Shown here in pieces: positions 5,967 to 40,305 of a stretch of 41,544 nucleotides of DNA (position 1 is the first letter of the stretch; each line of letters starts with the position of its first letter). Both the position numbers and the translations under genes were made by a program. The DNA comes from Mesorhizobium sp. M7A.T.Ca.US.000.02.2.1 (GTDB lineage: Bacteria; Pseudomonadota; Alphaproteobacteria; Rhizobiales; Rhizobiaceae): positions 1-41,544 of the forward strand of contig NZ_RZTT01000006.1 in assembly GCF_003996995.1 (NCBI RefSeq). The letters run 5' to 3'. The notes under the pieces are model-generated. The model was not told where the DNA came from. It searched no databases and saw only the letters and a list, made by a program, of their open reading frames with translations.

Positions 5967-7856
5967 TTAAGCTACTCCAGCGATCGCCCTGGCGAATTCG
6001 CTTGCCGAGAAAGGTTCGAGGTCGTCGACCTGTTCGCCGACGCCAATGAAATAGACCGGCAATTTGTGCTTTGCCGCGATCGCCACCAGAATACCGCCGC
6101 GTGCCGTGCCGTCCAGCTTGGTCATCACCAGGCCGTTGACGCCGGCGATATTGCGGAAGATCTCGACCTGGTTGAGCGCGTTCTGGCCGGTGGTGGCGTC
6201 GACCGTCTGCAGCACGGTGTGCGGTGCTTCCGGATCGAGCTTGCCCAGCACGCGAACGATCTTTTCGAGCTCGGCCATCAGTTCGGTCTTGTTCTGCAGG
6301 CGGCCGGCGGTGTCGATGATCAGCACGTCGGAACCGGCCTCCTTGGCCTTCTCGAAGGCGTCATAGGCGAGCCCCGCGGCATCGGCGCCGATCTTGGAGG
6401 CGATGACCGGCGATTTCGTCCGCTCGCCCCAGATCTTCAGCTGCTCGATCGCAGCGGCGCGGAACGTGTCGCCGGCGGCGAGCATCACCGACAGGCCGCC
6501 ATCGGTGAGCTTGGCGGCGAGCTTGCCGATCGTGGTGGTCTTGCCGGTGCCATTGACGCCGACCACCAGGATGACATGCGGTTTGTGGGAGAGGTCGAGC
6601 TCCAGCGGCATGGCGACGTGGGTCAACACCTTTTCCACCTCGGCCGCCATGATGGCGCGGACCTCGGTGTCGGAGACGTCCTTGCCGTAGCGGCTGGCGG
6701 CCAGCGCGTCGGTAACGCGCAAGGCCGTCTCCATGCCGAGATCGGCACGGATCAGCACATCCTCAAGGTCCTGCAAAGTCTCTTCGTCCAGCTTGCGCTT
6801 GGTGAAGACGCCGGCAATGTTGCCGGTGAGCTCCTTGGAGGAGCGGGCAAGCCCGTCCTTCATGCGCTGGAACCAGGAGCGCCTCGGTGCCGGTTCGGGC
6901 GCCTTCCGCGGCTCGGCCTTCTGCTGGACCTTTTTGGTGACGGTCACCTTGCCGGGCGCGGCTTTCGGCTCCGGCGCGGGTTGTGGAAGAGACTGCGGCT
7001 CGGGCGCGATTTCCGCAATGACCGGCTGCGATTCGATCGGCGCAGGCTCGCGAATGGGAGGTGCGATTTCGGCGGCGGGCGCTTCGGCCACGAGAGCAGC
7101 CGGCATGGCTTCCACGGGTGGCGCCGAATCTTTCGCAAGTTCGTGCTGCCCCTCACCCCGTGAAGGACGGGGAGAGGGGGGCGTCAGCGTTGAGGCTTCG
7201 TCTTCGATGTTTGCGAGAGGAGACGCAGCTTCACCGCTAGCCCCCTTCTCCCCGTCTCTATACGGGGAGAAGGTGCCGGCAGGCGGATGAGGGGCGGTGC
7301 CGGCCTCTGAAGACGGCTGAAGAGGGGACGGCGCCGGTGTCGGCACCTCGATCGGCGCTGGTGTTTCTGCCGGAACCTCGACAGGCGTCGGCACTTCGAC
7401 CGGGGCCGGCTCCGGCTGCTTTTCCGGCCGCGACGGGACGATCTCCGGCTCGGCCGGCGCCGGAGCAGGGACTTCTTGCGGCTGCGGTTCGGGAGCAGGC
7501 TCCGGAACGGCGGGAGGTGTTGGTATCTCCTCGGGCGCCGGCGGCTCGGCTGGCGTCTCGGGCGCCGGTTCTTCTTCCGGCTCGGGCTCCGGCAGAGGCT
7601 CCGGCTCGGGCGCCGGTTCCTCGACAGGCGCCGGTTCCGGCGCAGGAATTACCTCCGGCTCGACCGTCGGCGTCGTTTCTGCCTCCGGCCGCGGCTCTTC
7701 GCGCTTCAAGAACTCCGGAACGACCTGTTCGGCCGCCGGCTTCAGCGCATCGAGTGCTTCCCATTTGATCGGCGGCAGCGGGGCGGTCTCGTCGATCCGC
7801 TCCTCGACAACCTCTTTCTTGCCGAACGAAAATATCTTCTTGAAAAAACCAGCCAT
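5967..7856 (-). CDS. ftsY: Signal recognition particle receptor FtsY
   Basis: SRP receptor GTPase that docks ribosome-nascent chain complexes at the membrane. The conserved NG domain occupies about residues 327-629. It has G1 GVNGTGKT at 433-440, a DTFRAAA motif, DTAGRLQNK (G3) and [10 protein letters not shown] (G4). The N-terminal 320 residues are an acidic Pro/Glu-rich region (many EPAPE units), longer than in E. coli FtsY (497 residues in all). Within it, residues about 189-237 come from a two-hairpin repeat element read in frame (see 7149-7273). The first residues, [16 protein letters not shown], form a basic amphipathic membrane anchor. It lies 11 bases downstream of mtaB, so it is co-transcribed. 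Confidence 0.97.
7149..7273. repeat. Two-hairpin repeat element embedded in ftsY
   Basis: Hairpin one: CCCCTCACCCCGT (7149-7161) pairs with ACGGGGAGAGGGG (7167-7179), one mismatch, 5-base loop. Hairpin two: CCTTCTCCCCGT (7244-7255) pairs perfectly with ACGGGGAGAAGG (7262-7273), 6-base loop. This is the look of a Mesorhizobium intergenic repeat, here inside a coding region; flanking similarity may run to about 7295. The related hairpin at 35608-35636 is intergenic. Confidence 0.85.
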
Positions 7857-7867
7857 GCTTTGCGTTC

Positions 7868-9181
7868 TCAGGCGGCGCGGGCGGCAAGGGGCGCCGCGAT
7901 CAGCCTGCTACCATCGTGGCCTGATATCTCAGCCTCGACGATCTCACCCGGTGCGCCCGTGCCGAGTGCGGCAAGCGTAAAACCCTCGGTGCGGCCAAGG
8001 CCGTCGCGCTCGATCAGGATCGACTGGCGCGTTCCGGTGAGCGACGACAGATGCCTGAAATAGGCAGCTTCACCGGCGGCACGCAGCCGGGCGGCGCGCT
8101 GCTTGACGACCTCGCGGCGGAGCTGCGGCATGCGCGCGGCGGGCGTGCCTTCGCGTGGGCTGAAGGGGAAGACGTGGAGATGGGTCAGGCCACACTCCTC
8201 GACAATTTTTTCCGAGTTCTCGAACATTTCGTCGGTCTCGGTCGGGAAGCCGGCGATGATGTCGGCGCCAAAGACGATACCGGGGCGCAGCTTGCGCACA
8301 TCCTCGCAGAAGCGGATCGACTGATCGCGTAGGTGCCTTCGCTTCATCCGCTTCAGGATCATGTCGTCGCCCGATTGCAGCGACAGATGCAGATGCGGCA
8401 TCAGCCTGGGCTCGGTGGCGATGGCATCGAGCAAATCGTCGTCAGCTTCGATCGAATCGATCGACGACAGCCGCAGCCGCTTCACGTCGGGCACCTGTTT
8501 CAGGATTGTTTTCACCAGTTTGCCGAGCTTCGGCGCCCCCGGCAGATCGGCGCCGAATGATGTCATGTCGACGCCGGTCAGCACGATCTCGGCATAGCCG
8601 TTGCCGGCGAGCCGCTTGACCTGCTCGACCACGGCGCCCATCGGCACCGAGCGCGAATTGCCGCGGCCGTAGGGAATGATGCAGAAGGTGCAGCGGTGGT
8701 CGCAGCCGTTCTGCACCTGGACGAAGGCGCGCGCCCGGCCCTCGATGGCGTCGACCATGTGGCCTGCGGTCTCACGCACCGAAAAGATATCGTTGACGCG
8801 CGCCTTCTCGGTGTCGTTGACGCCGAAATCCGGCAGCGCGCGATAGGAATTGGCGTTCAGCTTCTCTTCATTGCCAAGCACGAGATCGACCTCGTCCATG
8901 GCGGCGAATTTTTCAGGCTCGGTCTGCGCGGCGCAGCCGGTGACGATGATGCGTGCCCGTGGGTTGTCGCGGCGGGCCTTGCGGATCGCCTGCTTGGCCT
9001 GGCGCACTGCTTCGCCTGTCACGGCGCAGGTGTTGAAGATCAAAGCGCCGCCTTCCAGCGCGCCCAGACCGGCACTTTCGGCCTCGCGCCGCATCACCTG
9101 CGATTCATAGGTGTTGAGCCGGCAGCCGAAGGTGACGACATCGATGCCCTTGGACACCGGGCTCTTGGGCAGAGCGGACAT
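7868..9181 (-). CDS. mtaB: tRNA t6A37 methylthiotransferase MtaB
   Basis: Radical-SAM enzyme that adds a methylthio group to N6-threonylcarbamoyladenosine at tRNA position 37. The N-terminal UPF0004 domain carries Cys20 (TFGCRLN), Cys52 and Cys83 for the auxiliary cluster. The radical-SAM motif is C160-x3-C164-x2-C167 (NGCDHRCTFC). A C-terminal TRAM-like part follows (SILIERDGLGRTEGF). FGCRLNTYES and GCDHRCTFCIIPYGRG suit MtaB better than MiaB or RimO. The start at 9181 shares one base with the dapF stop (TGATG), which indicates coupled translation; a longer frame to 9250 lies wholly inside dapF. Length 437 residues. Confidence 0.93.
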   Translation of the reverse strand: MSALPKSPVSKGIDVVTFGCRLNTYESQVMRREAESAGLGALEGGALIFNTCAVTGEAVRQAKQAIRKARRDNPRARIIVTGCAAQTEPEKFAAMDEVDLVLGNEEKLNANSYRALPDFGVNDTEKARVNDIFSVRETAGHMVDAIEGRARAFVQVQNGCDHRCTFCIIPYGRGNSRSVPMGAVVEQVKRLAGNGYAEIVLTGVDMTSFGADLPGAPKLGKLVKTILKQVPDVKRLRLSSIDSIEADDDLLDAIATEPRLMPHLHLSLQSGDDMILKRMKRRHLRDQSIRFCEDVRKLRPGIVFGADIIAGFPTETDEMFENSEKIVEECGLTHLHVFPFSPREGTPAARMPQLRREVVKQRAARLRAAGEAAYFRHLSSLTGTRQSILIERDGLGRTEGFTLAALGTGAPGEIVEAEISGHDGSRLIAAPLAARAA

Positions 9182-10065
9182 CAGGCCGCGCTTTCGGTGT
9201 CGCGGGCCCATGTCCCGTTCGACGGGTCGAAGCTGCCGGAAAATTCCCATTCGGCGGCGCCGGTCAGCACCACATGGTCATCGTCGCGCCATTCGACATG
9301 CAGCGTACCGCCGCCTGGCGTCAACAGACCGACGCTGCGGCCGGTCCGGTTGGTGCGGGCCGCGGCCACCACGGCCGCGCAGGCGGCCGAGCCGCAGGCC
9401 TTGGTCAGTCCGGCGCCGCGCTCCCAGGTGCGGATGATCATGGTTTCGGGCGAAGTAACCTGAGCGATGGTGATGTTGGCGCGCTCGGGGAACATCGGAT
9501 GGTTCTCGAGCAGCGGGCCGAAGCGGTCGAGCTCATAGGACCAGACGTCATTGTCGACCCAGAAGATGGCGTGCGGATTGCCCATCGAGACGACCGAGGG
9601 GGAATGCAGCACCGGCGCGTCGATCGGGCCGATCTGCAGCTCGATCATGCGGGTGTCGCGGAATTCCTCGGCCAGCGGGATATCCTGCCAGCCGAAGCGT
9701 GGCGTGCCCATATCGACCGAGATCGAGCCGTCGGCATGTTCGCGCGCATTGAGGATGCCCGCCACGGTTTCGAAGGTGAAGATCTTCTGGCCGGTCTCGG
9801 CGGCGAGCGCCTGGACGACGCAGCGCATGCCATTGCCGCAGGCCTGCGCGCCAGTTCCGTCGGAATTCAATATGTCGATGAAAAAGGCGGTGCCCGGCGT
9901 CCTTGCGTCGTGGATCGCCATGATCTGGTCGAAGCTGGTCGCGGCATCGGCGTTCAGCGCAATCGCCGCCGCCCCCGTCACTCGATCGGCACGGCCGCGC
10001 ATATCGGCAACGATGATCTCGTTGCCGATGCCGTTCATCTTGGCGAAAGGGGCAGTGCTGGCCAT
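9181..10065 (-). CDS. dapF: Diaminopimelate epimerase
   Basis: Interconverts LL- and meso-diaminopimelate, the last step before meso-DAP use in lysine and peptidoglycan synthesis. The two catalytic cysteines are seen at C76 (ACGNGMRC) and C224 ([10 protein letters not shown]), and the N-terminal [10 protein letters not shown] is the usual family start. Length 294 residues, normal. GGAG lies just before the ATG. It leads the minus-strand operon dapF-mtaB-ftsY-ispZ. Confidence 0.97.
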
Positions 10066-10160
10066 TGCTCCGGAAATTCCGTGTCCGTTTGGCGCTATAT
10101 GGCGGAAACGGGCAGGAATTACCAGTGCGCAGCCGCTTGGTCACGGCGAAAGCGCCGGAC

Positions 10161-10260
10161 TCACGTGACGGCGAAAATGCCCAGCACCACCAGCAGGAAG
10201 ATGATCAGAACGATGCCGATAAGGATGCGCGCGCCGGTGGCGGCAGCACCTGCCAGCGTC
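10161..10260 (-). pseudogene. DUF1328 (UPF0391) membrane protein, 3' half
   Basis: On the minus strand this piece encodes TLAGAAATGARIL and then a hydrophobic helix ending GIFAVT and TGA. That is the second half of a DUF1328 small membrane protein. Its first half is on the opposite strand at 10335-10394. Joining the two in frame gives a complete protein of about 53 residues (MLKW...LLG-MT-LAGAAA...GIFAVT). In the present arrangement the piece is read only as the tail of an unrelated 81-codon frame (10161-10406), so the gene is broken. Confidence 0.75.
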
Positions 10261-10261
10261 G

Positions 10262-10325
10262 CTATGTGCTCCGGTACATTCCAGACCTCGCCCGGCCGCA
10301 AGGCGCGAAAGCGCTCGAGCGGGAT
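10262..10325 (-). pseudogene. Displaced C-terminal end of the MBL-fold hydrolase
   Basis: This piece encodes IPLERFRALRPGEVWNVP, which is the kind of C-terminus expected after ...KLTEALDDQ in NAPE-PLD-like MBL proteins (pattern G-I-x2-ERF-x2-L-x-PGE-x-W). It is in a different frame from the main MBL reading frame because a 67-base foreign piece (10329-10395) lies between. Restoring GGCATC directly after the DDQ codons would give a continuous protein. Confidence 0.7.
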
Positions 10326-10334
10326 GCCATCGCC

Positions 10335-10394
10335 ATGCTCAAATGGATCATCATCCTCCTGATCGTCGCCGCGGCGGCGAGCCTGCTCGGCATG
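10335..10394 (+). pseudogene. DUF1328 (UPF0391) membrane protein, 5' half, inverted
   Basis: The plus strand reads MLKWIIILLIVAAAASLLGM, the first transmembrane helix of a DUF1328 protein. It then runs into the antisense of the MBL gene (PDRQAPRS...), with no second helix. The matching second half is on the minus strand at 10161-10260. The piece sits in an inserted 67-base segment at 10329-10395. Confidence 0.75.
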
Positions 10395-11406
10395 CCTGAT
10401 CGTCAAGCGCCTCGGTCAATTTGCGCGCCGGCTCGTCGATCGGCTCGTCAGTGAGCTGGAAAGTTCCCCAATGACAGCCGGCGGCATGGGCGGCATTGCA
10501 CAGCGTCATGCCTTGCACCGCTTCCCAGGGGTTCTGGTGCTGCGGCGCCATGAACCAGCGCGGTTCATAGGCGCCGATCGGCAGGATGGCGAAGCGGAAA
10601 CCGCCATGTTTGTCGGCCATCCGCCGGTAGTTGATGCCATTGTGAAAGCCGGTATCGCCGGCGAAATAGAGCTTGCTGTCAGGTGTTTCGACGACGAAGC
10701 CGGCCCAAAGCGCCATGCGCCGGTCGCGGGCGCCACGCGCCGACCAGTGATGCACCGGCTCGACATGGACGGCGGCGCCATCGCCGATCTCGACCCTGTC
10801 GCCCCAGTCATGCGCCGACAGTCGCATGCCGGGCACGGCGGCTTCGATGATGGCGTCGTTGCCGAGCGGAGTGAGCACCAGCGGGTCGTGGCCGGCCTTC
10901 AGCCGCTTCAACGTGGCGAGGTCGAGATGGTCATAGTGGTTGTGGCTGACCAGCACGAGGTCGATCGGCGGCAGGTCGGCAAAGGCGATGCCTGGCGCAT
11001 TGATGCGTTTTGGTCCGGCGAAGGAAAGCGGCGACGCGCGCAGCGACCACACCGGATCGGTAAGAATGTTCAGACCGGCCGTCTGGACCAGCAAGGTGGA
11101 ATGACCAACCATGGTCACTTCCAGCGCGGCGCCCTCGACCCGAGCCGTCGGTTTCGCCTGCGGAAAGGGGCTTGCATCGCTCGCCGGCCATTTCGAGCGC
11201 TGGCCATTCAACTGCCATTTCAGCAGGTCGGCGAAACGGCCGGGTGGCTGGCCGTCGGGATTGAAGAACAATGCGCCGTCGAAATGGTCGCTGGGCGGGC
11301 CGCTGTAATAGCGATTGGCGGCAGTCTTTCTCGCGGCCAATTTGCGGCTCCAGCAGGGTTTCGTTTTCCAGACATAGGCGCTAAGGCGGTTCGCGCAAGC
11401 GTCCAC
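10351..11406 (-). CDS. MBL-fold metal-dependent hydrolase (NAPE-PLD-like), 3' end disrupted
   Basis: Zinc-dependent hydrolase of the Lactamase_B_2 type. The core is intact: GHSTLL at 101-106, TDPVWS, the metal motif HNHYDH at 155-160, HHWSARG, FAGDTG, and CHWGTFQLTDEPIDEP near the end. After LTEALDDQ the frame runs into a foreign 67-base segment and ends ACRAGSPPRRRSGG. The native C-terminus is found displaced at 10262-10325. All catalytic ligands lie before the break, so some activity could remain. The start is uncertain: the frame opens with GTG at 11406, but family similarity begins only at ANRYYSGPPSDHFDG (about residue 30), so a later non-ATG start is possible. Confidence 0.8.
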   Translation of the reverse strand: MDACANRLSAYVWKTKPCWSRKLAARKTAANRYYSGPPSDHFDGALFFNPDGQPPGRFADLLKWQLNGQRSKWPASDASPFPQAKPTARVEGAALEVTMVGHSTLLVQTAGLNILTDPVWSLRASPLSFAGPKRINAPGIAFADLPPIDLVLVSHNHYDHLDLATLKRLKAGHDPLVLTPLGNDAIIEAAVPGMRLSAHDWGDRVEIGDGAAVHVEPVHHWSARGARDRRMALWAGFVVETPDSKLYFAGDTGFHNGINYRRMADKHGGFRFAILPIGAYEPRWFMAPQHQNPWEAVQGMTLCNAAHAAGCHWGTFQLTDEPIDEPARKLTEALDDQACRAGSPPRRRSGG

Positions 11407-13646: not shown

Positions 13647-14759
<1,113 letters not shown>

Positions 14760-27346: not shown

Positions 27347-27476
27347 GATCCCATTCCTAGAACCGAAAAGCGGCAAAACGGTTAATTGGTACTGCGAAAT
27401 TGTCTTCGACCGGCTATCGCCCTCAGCGGACGTCGATGGTGCTCATGACTCAATGATTAGCGGAAACGCCCATTTC

Positions 27477-27663
27477 TTCGTCATCCACGGGCGGAGCAAG
27501 GAGCGTAGCGACGCGGCGCAGAACCGAGGATCCATGCCGGGACTCTGGAACGCTGCAACAGTGCAGAATTCCGCTCCGCAGCACTCCATGGCAAAGGTCG
27601 CGGCATGGATCCCAGGGTCTCCGCGACGGAGCTTCGCTCCTGCTTCGCCCAGGGATGACGACG
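27477..27663. repeat. Large imperfect palindromic repeat between TraB/GumN gene and xerC
   Basis: About 187 bases. The ends mirror one another: TTCGTCATCCACGGGCGGAG on the left, and TGCTTCGCCCAGGGATGACG on the right. Inside, GAGGATCCATGCCG faces CGGCATGGATCCC. It holds most of the 380-base gap 27347-27726, in which no gene is seen. The same family occurs at 28797-29054. Confidence 0.8.
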
Positions 27664-28665: not shown

Positions 28666-28796
28666 GGCGGCATTTTCGGGTATTCGGGTTAGGAAGCGGT
28701 GAAGAGCCGTCATTGAAATGACAGCCGGCTGAGGTTAGGAGACCATCGATTGGTGGCAGGTGACTACCTTGGTGATTGGCTGAAATGCCCGCCCCC

Positions 28797-29054
28797 TTCG
28801 TCATCCTGGGGCGGAGCAGGAGCGAAGCGACGTCGCGGAGACCCCAGGATCCATGCCGTGACCTGCGAGCGTTGCTGCGTTACAAGTCTGATAGCTTTGC
28901 GGTGGAGACCACGCGAAGTGTTTGCAAATAAAGAGTTGGCAGGAACGAGACTCGTGACCCTTTCTGAACTGCCGTGCTTTTTGGTCGCCGTAACGGAATG
29001 GATCCTCGGGCCTGCGCAGTCGCTTCGCGCCTGCTCCGCCCGTGGATGACGAAG
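28797..29054. repeat. Large imperfect palindromic repeat upstream of rimM
   Basis: About 258 bases. The left end TTCGTCATCCTGGGGCGGAG mirrors the right end CTGCTCCGCCCGTGGATGAC-GAA. Inside, CAGGATCCATGCCGTGACC faces CGTAACGGAATGGATCC. The right end (GATGACGAAGG) supplies the ribosome site of rimM. With a short plain stretch it accounts for the gap 28666-29065; no gene is seen there. Confidence 0.8.
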
Positions 29055-29065
29055 GTAAAAGCGCC

Positions 29066-37815: not shown

Positions 37816-39012
37816 TTGGACACGGGTCTGCTCATTGCGCTGCTCAACCCGACGATCGCGCTGGCGCTCGGCGCGGCGTTCCTTGTGCTATGGTCCTATC
37901 AGCGCCACCGCCCCTATCTGGCCGTTTTGGCGATCAGCTACAGTCTCTCGGCGGCTGGCTTCCTGCTGCAGTATTTCACCTTGCCCATCGGGATGCCGCT
38001 GACCAAGCTTACGTCGAACATCTGCTTCACCATCGCCGCGTGCTGCCTGGCCAGCGCTGTTATCCACCGCTATGGCCGCAAGGTGCCCTATGTGGGGATC
38101 GCCGTGCTGGCCGGCGGCGGCCTGGCGTCGTTGTGCTGGTTCCTGTTCGTCGCGCCGGATCTCACCTGGCGCATCCTGGCGATGAATTTCGCATTCGGCG
38201 GCATCAGCCTTCTGGTTGCTGCCGAACTGCGCCCGGTGCGCAACAACGGCCCGACCGAAAAAATCCTGTTCGTGCTGTCGCTGCTGTCGGGCGTCAATTT
38301 CTTCGTGCGCACCCTTGCCGTCGTCATCGCGCATGGGCCCTTCGCCAGCTATGACGGGTTCTATGGCTCGTCCTACTGGACGACGGCGCTGCTGTCGCAC
38401 GCGCTGCTCTCGCTGCTCATTGCGCTGTGCCTGTTTTCCGCCGCGGCACTCGACGTGTTGAAGGCATTGAAGACCGAGACCTATACCGACCCCCTGTCGG
38501 GCCTGCTCAACCGGCGTGGCTTCGAGGAACGCGGCATGCGGCTCTTGCAGCACTGCGCCTCGGCCCGGTTCCCGGTCGCGCTGGTGCTGGCTGACCTCGA
38601 TCACTTCAAGGCGCTCAACGATGTGCATGGACATGGCGCGGGCGATCGGGTGATCGCCGACTTCGCCGCCAAGCTTCGGTCGGCGGCCGGCGCGCGCGGT
38701 GTTGCCGGGCGTATCGGCGGCGAGGAATTCGCGGTGCTGCTGCCACTCAGCGATCTTGCCGCGGCCCGGCTGTTCGCCGAGGCGGTGCGCACCGTCTATT
38801 CGGCCGGCCATGTCGACGGACTTCCCCAGGGAACGAGGGTGACGGCAAGCTTCGGCGTGGCGGCCCGCAGCGGTGGCGAGGCGCTGGAGCCGCTGATGCG
38901 CCGTGCCGACGATGCGCTCTACAAAGCCAAGAAGAACGGCCGCGACAGTGTACGCCTGTCCTATGAGCGGCCGGAAACGGCGTTCCTGCCGGAGCCGCTC
39001 AAGACCGGCTGA
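37816..39012 (+). CDS. Membrane-bound diguanylate cyclase (GGDEF protein 1)
   Basis: Predicted c-di-GMP synthase of 398 residues. About seven transmembrane helices fill residues 1-210. The GGDEF domain follows: DPLSGLLNRRGF, LADLDHFKALND, and the active loop GRIGGEEF. The inhibitory I-site (RxxD before the loop) is not present; the stretch is AAGARGVAGRIGGEEF. The start is probably TTG at 37816, with GGGGAAG about 12 bases before it. The next gene is a paralogue of the same architecture, 75 bases downstream. Confidence 0.9.
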   Translation: MDTGLLIALLNPTIALALGAAFLVLWSYQRHRPYLAVLAISYSLSAAGFLLQYFTLPIGMPLTKLTSNICFTIAACCLASAVIHRYGRKVPYVGIAVLAGGGLASLCWFLFVAPDLTWRILAMNFAFGGISLLVAAELRPVRNNGPTEKILFVLSLLSGVNFFVRTLAVVIAHGPFASYDGFYGSSYWTTALLSHALLSLLIALCLFSAAALDVLKALKTETYTDPLSGLLNRRGFEERGMRLLQHCASARFPVALVLADLDHFKALNDVHGHGAGDRVIADFAAKLRSAAGARGVAGRIGGEEFAVLLPLSDLAAARLFAEAVRTVYSAGHVDGLPQGTRVTASFGVAARSGGEALEPLMRRADDALYKAKKNGRDSVRLSYERPETAFLPEPLKTG

Positions 39013-39087
39013 ATCTGCCCGGACGGGACGGCGTTAACGTCTTCTTCGCCCGTCGATGATTAGCTGTCGGCGCGGGTGCGGGAGAAC

Positions 39088-40305
39088 ATGAGCGGCGCCA
39101 ACTTCATCCTGTTGATCAATCTGTCGGTTGCCGGCCTGCTGGCGGCATCCTTCATGGCGGTCGCCTTCCACGATGTCGGCCGCGCGCCGGCGCGCTGGCT
39201 GGCATTTGGCTATCTGCTGGGCATGGCCTATTCGGCCATCGAGTTCTCCATTCCCGCTTTCACCGACGCGCGGCTCCCGGTCGTGGCCGCCTTCGCGGTT
39301 TTCCTTGCCGCCACCATTGCGTTCAATGGCGGGCTTGCCCGCAAATACGGCGTGGCACTGCCCTGGAAGCCGATGCTGTTGTTCCTGTTGACCACCACCA
39401 TAGCTGTGTATTTCGTGCAGGATCTGCCCCGCCAGTCGCTGATCCGCATCATGGCTTACCAGCTTCCCTATGCGGTCATGCAGTTTGTCGGGCTGGCCAT
39501 TGTCTGGTCATCGAGGCAAAAGCTTGCCCGTCTCGATCGCATGTTGATGGCCGTGCTGGCGGCGAGCGGCCTGCAGTTTGCCTCCAAACCGTTCATCGCG
39601 CATGCGCTTGGCGGCTGGGGCGCCAATCCGCAGGCCTATCTGCAAAGCAACTACGCGCTGGTGTCGCAATCGCTCGGCACTGTCTTTGCGCTGGCGCTGG
39701 CGCTGCTGATGCTGGCCATCCTGGTTCGCGACGTGCTTGCCGAAGTGACGTCGAAGTCGGAGACGGACACGCTTTCGCGCCTGCTCAACCGCGGCGGCTT
39801 CACCCGGCATGCCGAGCTGGCGGTGCTTGGCGCGATGCGGCAAGGCGTGCCGGTCGCGCTGGTCATCGCCGATCTCGATCATTTCAAGAGCGTCAACGAC
39901 AGTTTCGGCCATGCGTCAGGCGACCGGGTGATCGAGACTTTTGCAGGCTTCCTGCGCGAAGCTGCAGCCGCGCATCACGTTGCGGGCCGCATTGGCGGCG
40001 AGGAGTTCGCCATCATCCTGCCGGGAACCAACCTTGCCGCGGCGCGGCTGTTCGCCGAGGGGACGCGCAGCGCCTTTGGCGGGCTGCCCATCGACGGGCT
40101 GCCGGCTGACAACCGCTGCACCGCGAGCTTCGGCGTCGCCGAACTTCATCCGAGCGAAGATTTTGCCGATCTGATGCGGCGCGCCGACCAGGCGCTCTAT
40201 CAGGCGAAGAATGCCGGGCGCGATTGCGTGCGCGTTTCCGCCGGACCTGCCGGCAACTGGTCGTCAGCCGGAATGGAAGCCAGAGCAATTTCAGGAAAAG
40301 TGTGA
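39088..40305 (+). CDS. Membrane-bound diguanylate cyclase (GGDEF protein 2)
   Basis: Second diguanylate cyclase, 405 residues, with about seven N-terminal helices and a C-terminal GGDEF domain: DTLSRLLNRGGF, IADLDHFKSVND, GRIGGEEF. The I-site Asp is again missing (AHHVAGRIGGEEF). ATG at 39088 follows GGGAGAAC; a GTG four codons upstream is possible. The last residues (RAISGKV) and the stop are encoded by a repeat element (40282-40369), so the C-terminus was probably re-made by insertion. Likely arose by duplication with the preceding gene. Confidence 0.9.
   Translation: MSGANFILLINLSVAGLLAASFMAVAFHDVGRAPARWLAFGYLLGMAYSAIEFSIPAFTDARLPVVAAFAVFLAATIAFNGGLARKYGVALPWKPMLLFLLTTTIAVYFVQDLPRQSLIRIMAYQLPYAVMQFVGLAIVWSSRQKLARLDRMLMAVLAASGLQFASKPFIAHALGGWGANPQAYLQSNYALVSQSLGTVFALALALLMLAILVRDVLAEVTSKSETDTLSRLLNRGGFTRHAELAVLGAMRQGVPVALVIADLDHFKSVNDSFGHASGDRVIETFAGFLREAAAAHHVAGRIGGEEFAIILPGTNLAAARLFAEGTRSAFGGLPIDGLPADNRCTASFGVAELHPSEDFADLMRRADQALYQAKNAGRDCVRVSAGPAGNWSSAGMEARAISGKV

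Follow-up and report, generated by a model that had tools for sequence, protein, structure and literature searches.

Two neighboring genes in the draft genome of Mesorhizobium sp. M7A.T.Ca.US.000.02.2.1 are broken at a single spot, one half of the smaller gene lying backwards inside the larger one, and this raises the question of whether the chromosome itself carries the scramble or whether it was made on the way to the assembly. The window, that is, the whole stretch of DNA that was analyzed, is the entire contig C666 (NZ_RZTT01000006.1; 41,544 nucleotides, read on the forward strand) of a draft with a size of 6.65 Mb in 939 contigs, which is given as 99.95% complete (GCF_003996995.1). The rearrangement is located 10 kb inside this 41.5-kb contig, the longest one examined, and consists of three joins within ~140 nt. 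In close relatives, the plus strand of the locus reads C - A - S (~80 bp) - B - M. Here, C and A are the 3' half and the 5' half of a small DUF1328-like gene, B and M are the 3' end and the body of an MBL-hydrolase gene, and S is a spacer; both genes are encoded by the minus strand. In the window, the order is C - B - A (flipped, here A') - M, S is absent, and both genes are broken. The features of the region are as follows.

9181..10065, minus strand: next gene downstream, diaminopimelate epimerase (DapF), 294 residues, open frame (PF01678, 137.7 bits).
10161..10261, minus strand: segment C, which holds the 3' half of a DUF1328-like gene for a small two-helix protein and ends GIFAVT; within alignments from 10060 to 10256/10261 at 82-97% identity to 9 relative loci.
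10256..10261, no strand: join C/B, ~2 nt common (CG); the ~150 bp of A and S that the relatives have here are lacking, as read from their alignment and the window sequence.
10260..10328, minus strand: segment B, the native MBL 3' end (GIPLERFRALRPGEVWNVPEHIA), which retains its direct orientation and is now apart from the MBL body (84-94% identity over 45-73 nt, 9 relative loci).
10325..10331, no strand: join B/A', ~1 nt common, read from the window and the relatives' alignment.
10328..10396, plus strand: segment A', the 5' half of the small gene (MLKWIIILLIVAAAASLLGM), relocated and inverted (inverted match to 9 relative loci).
10351..11406, minus strand: MBL-fold hydrolase open reading frame (PF12706, 122.9 bits; from the list of open reading frames and the intact G104 homologue), with the frameshifted tail ACRAGSPPRRRSGG in place of the native last residues.
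10389..10396, no strand: join A'/M, 5 nt common (ATGCC/GGCAT), read from the window and the relatives' alignments.

An earlier note, made from the letters of the window, had concluded that the first half of the small gene was moved and flipped into the MBL gene from an order in which both genes lay on one strand, and had proposed an alignment with other Mesorhizobium loci. This alignment bears the conclusion out. In 9/9 aligned close-relative loci, positions 10328/10333-10396 match in inverted orientation (91-97% identity over 64-79 nt). The matches of B (from 10260/10269) and of M (10385-10397 onward) are direct. The inverted match is best in G124 (97.1% over 69 nt, E 2.8e-28); it reaches 93-97% over 69 nt in G104, G066, G067, G029, G124, and G126 and 91-95% over 64-79 nt in G079, G091, and G027. 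The break is identical against G104, G066, G067, and G029, as well as against G124 within the part of the window covered by this genome (7732-25394), and no further site in the window had an inverted match in all five of these genomes. A single inversion, which had already been judged insufficient, is ruled out because B retains its orientation. The earlier description of the move and flip of A thus stands, but it had missed the loss of the ~80-bp spacer: the flanking matches are 216 nt apart in G066 and 133 nt apart in the window. An inverted insertion and a deletion are therefore both needed, giving three joins. Two features of the relatives are noted separately. The small gene is separated from the MBL end by ~0.74 kb in G079, G091, and G027 (vs ~0.08 kb), and the MBL gene of G124 contains ten Ns with overlapping flanks (L034, ~2018-2027), which look like that draft's scaffold-gap mark.

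The intact proteins that had been deduced by joining the pieces agree with those of G104, in which the small protein is encoded by an 89-residue open reading frame whose last 53 residues are MLKWIVVLLIVAAAASLLGMPALAGAAATGARILIGIVLIIFLLMVLGIFAVT and the MBL protein has the C terminus LTEALDDQGIPRERFRALRPGEVWDVPEHIAP; the frameshift at the MBL end in the window is evident from the same comparison. The MBL protein of the window matches positions 2-200 of 200 of the Lactamase_B_2 profile (cut-off of 27 bits) and differs from MBL-fold hydrolases of this family in the frameshifted tail that follows LTEALDDQ. The name chosen for the small protein holds less well. The intact 53-residue G104 homologue covers positions 1-38 of 39 of the DUF1328 profile (PF07043) but scores 20 bits, below the curated cut-off of 27; the match at this locus is 27.1 bits in G086 and 23 bits in G005, and a clear DUF1328 gene is found at other coordinates in all six relatives compared (G104, G066, G067, G029, G077, and G079). 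With a score below the cut-off, "DUF1328-like" would be the proper and fair name, and the DUF1328 label is weak. PF07043 matches above the cut-off were found in 144/146 genus genomes and none were found in our draft and G023. However, the place of the clear G104 gene corresponds to a ~2.3-kb unassembled gap between contigs C142 and C36 of our draft, and hence the missing match is uninformative as to a true loss of DUF1328. Both A' and C remain readable as open frames in the window, and there is no sign of their decay.

The arrangement seen in the window is not shared within the genus. We surveyed the order of the segments in 58 loci from 53 genus genomes, the best-matching ones of the locus searches. 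The order C+A-B+M+ was found in 51 loci, C+A-M+ with B undetected in 6, and B+M+ with C and A undetected in 1; A adjoins C, in an orientation opposite to that in the window, in 57/58 loci. Neither the order of the window nor any intermediate order occurs among these 58 loci. A search with positions 10130-10470 matched 143 of the 146 genus genomes (our own included), and among the matches listed (to ~E 6e-21), only the window's own extends well across a join, the longest overrun elsewhere being ~14 nt, in G027. Within the 939 contigs of our draft, a second copy of the locus was not found (40/198 and 40/75 candidates scored). When the C-A-S-B stretch of G124 was used, A, B, and C matched only the window and S matched nowhere (40/75 scored), and a second intact copy was rejected as a candidate.

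The order and orientation of the segments, the absence of S, and the few nucleotides common to both sides of each join are observations, from which we infer a copying path and a library origin. The overlaps, judged by eye from the window letters and the relatives' alignment, are ~5, 1, and 2 nt, and joins of this size bear the signature of polymerase template switching rather than that of a recombinase or a k-mer misjoin. While the MBL body was being copied, synthesis would have switched strands at GGCAT, resuming at the A/C boundary, and A would then have been copied backwards for ~67 nt. Synthesis would next have returned to the point of departure and copied B, after which S and A would have been skipped and copying would have continued into C. 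The setting may have been the sequencing library, with fold-back or partial single-strand pairing in fragmentation, end repair, or amplification, and the chimera would have entered a thinly covered spot of the draft. On balance, the best account seems to us to be that the scramble is a template-switch chimera of library molecules that entered a fragmented draft, in which case both genes are probably intact on the chromosome, in the order found in the relatives. The earlier note had offered template switching or two nested inversions and had allowed for an assembly error. The first of these fits as to type, although the evidence leans, short of proof, towards an artefact rather than an event in the cell.

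What tips the balance towards a library chimera is the presence in the draft of two further flips, read by us as genic, close to contig ends. We surveyed 40 of our own contigs (the window included; 553,328 aligned bases) against the two-contig genome G066 by a method other than BLAST, since BLAST aligned straight through one of the events, in contig C200. These contigs came from a sample of 67 own contigs and the window, 12 of which were all N, the remainder being without placement by probe searches or unprobed; the choice was by number, with some taken for the comparison of the flanking DUF1328 gap, and hence non-random. An inverted match of at least 14 nt was found in 10 of 400 low-identity or gap stretches, and three of these, in the window, C26, and C200, were read by us as genic. 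In C26 (L203), 40 nt at 14538-14577 are flipped between CGCCGGC and GCCGGCG in an open frame, ~86 nt from the contig end. In C200 (L214), positions 55-111 are an inverted copy of neighboring sequence, with 41-nt perfect arms that start 16 nt from the contig start (17-111). Each is flipped relative to 8/8 relatives checked. C200 adjoins C665 in G066 with ~54 bp between them, indicating that the assembly broke beside this flip. Two of the three flips read as genic therefore lie no more than 125 nt from a contig end, a zone that holds ~1.7% of the aligned bases (75 ends; P 0.00085, with both the cut-off and the classing set post hoc and with only three genic flips, of which that in the window is far from a contig end). 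The location of these two flips, both missing in all relatives checked, is our reason for favoring a library chimera, and the restriction of the window's order to a single locus in our own draft is in line with it, as are the undecayed open frames of A' and C.

Artefacts of this general kind have been described. For human DNA, PMC10908179 reports reads from sonication libraries with inverted sequence between inverted repeats; it also describes inverted chimeras that arise when DNA is fragmented by sonication or enzymes, and it accounts for such artefacts by a PDSM model. The flips seen here resemble them as local inversions between short inverted repeats, most clearly in C26. For MDA assemblies of Bartonella, the relevant part of PMC3842359 reports deviations from the reference that were small and mostly at contig ends, the position taken by C26 and C200. 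Unlike such chimeras, the event in the window lies away from the contig ends and comprises three joins, and the same part of PMC3842359 describes chiefly shorter contigs rather than misassembled ones, which counts against an artefact. A further argument against it comes from a control between relatives, which gave 6 inverted matches in 248 stretches (342,796 aligned bases in 15 pairs, with regions that overlap one another in G066). The unclassed rates of inverted matches are 1.81 per 100 kb in our draft and 1.75 per 100 kb in the control, and there is no general excess in our draft. Because the overall rates are equal, the case for an artefact rests on the genic or repeat reading of the matches and on the two end-located flips, and our confidence in it was lowered slightly. 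The other seven matches in our draft (L199, L207, three in L079, L263, and L269) were read as repeat elements from the letters and alignments, as open frames fail to separate them from genes: long frames cross most of them (none of at least 60 residues at L199). The 6 control matches were also read as repeats; the alignments of 3/6 (two of them one place) show repeats, while the orientation went undetected for 2 and 1 was untried. In addition, of 75 contig ends, 4 had 8-600 nt of unaligned tail with space for it in the reference, and none of the 4 gave an inverted match; the frames of C26 and C200 stay open (C200 with 24 additional nt), as selection on real mutations would favor.

The main rival is that the rearrangement is a genuine and very recent template-switch mutation of the chromosome, by which A was inserted inverted and A plus S were deleted, inactivating the small gene and altering the MBL end; we give this a substantial chance, though short of an even one. 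Short-range template switching is treated as a mutation process in the portions of PMC7954356 and PMC8604942 concerned, the latter citing E. coli cases. In the four-point model of Loytynoja and Goldman, as presented in that portion of PMC7954356, a reverse-complement copy of a nearby stretch is placed between direct flanks through low-homology joins and the original template is then resumed. The window has all of these features, including the return to the original template, and the A/C boundary in G066 is marked by a 10-nt palindrome, CGGCATGCCG. It differs in that the source copy and the spacer are deleted as well, so a single four-point event is insufficient and the A-S deletion at the C/B join is an extra step, and in that it is seen here in the assembled record alone. 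The position of the event deep inside the contig, the open frames of the other two genic flips, and the similar rates in draft and control are also in favor of a real mutation. Against it stand the breakage of two genes, the confinement of the order to this one locus, and the two additional genic-read flips near contig ends, compared with 0/6 control matches read as genic (a reading not proved for each). It is conceivable, but we consider it improbable, that all three flips in ~0.55 Mb are real and recent and that the strain or its lineage has raised short-range template switching in genes, making it a natural mutator for inverted micro-rearrangements.

The choice between these two readings has practical consequences. 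If the scramble is an artefact, two genes look broken, a false gene loss would be recorded in the annotation, and at least 2 further places in the same draft (C26 and C200) are suspect. If it is real, the locus would provide a clear bacterial case of a multistep template switch that destroyed two genes at once; even then, it would be a mutation of a known kind and not a new system.

A pair of nested inversions with later loss of S, which on paper would give an identical final order, is very unlikely, as it requires three events within ~215 bp with common breakpoints, the best 12 inverted matches in the G066 locus are no longer than 10 nt (those of 9-10 nt being single palindromes), and no intermediate was seen among the surveyed loci. 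Movement of A by site-specific recombination or a mobile element is less likely still: the mirrored word GGCAT/ATGCC, pointed out in the earlier note, is indeed seen at the joins and flanks A, but the neighboring open reading frames that were profiled encode the MBL protein, DapF, a radical SAM protein, and an AFG1 ATPase, with no recombinases among them, and A stays beside C in nearly all relative loci.

Some other features of the draft were observed. In contig C332 (L207), an element at 7572-7669, bounded by ATGCATGTCG and CGACATGCAT and apparently lying between convergent genes, is inverted relative to G066; this looks like the flipping of a palindromic repeat, the direction of which is unpolarized. 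The window itself contains palindromic repeat elements at 27469-27661 and 28795-29058, with copies elsewhere in G104 and G067. Lastly, two adjacent related open reading frames of 398 and 409 residues are found at 37816-40305 in the window, with DNA that is ~67-69% identical between 38485-38961 and 39763-40239; from the motif, their products look like membrane-anchored GGDEF proteins.
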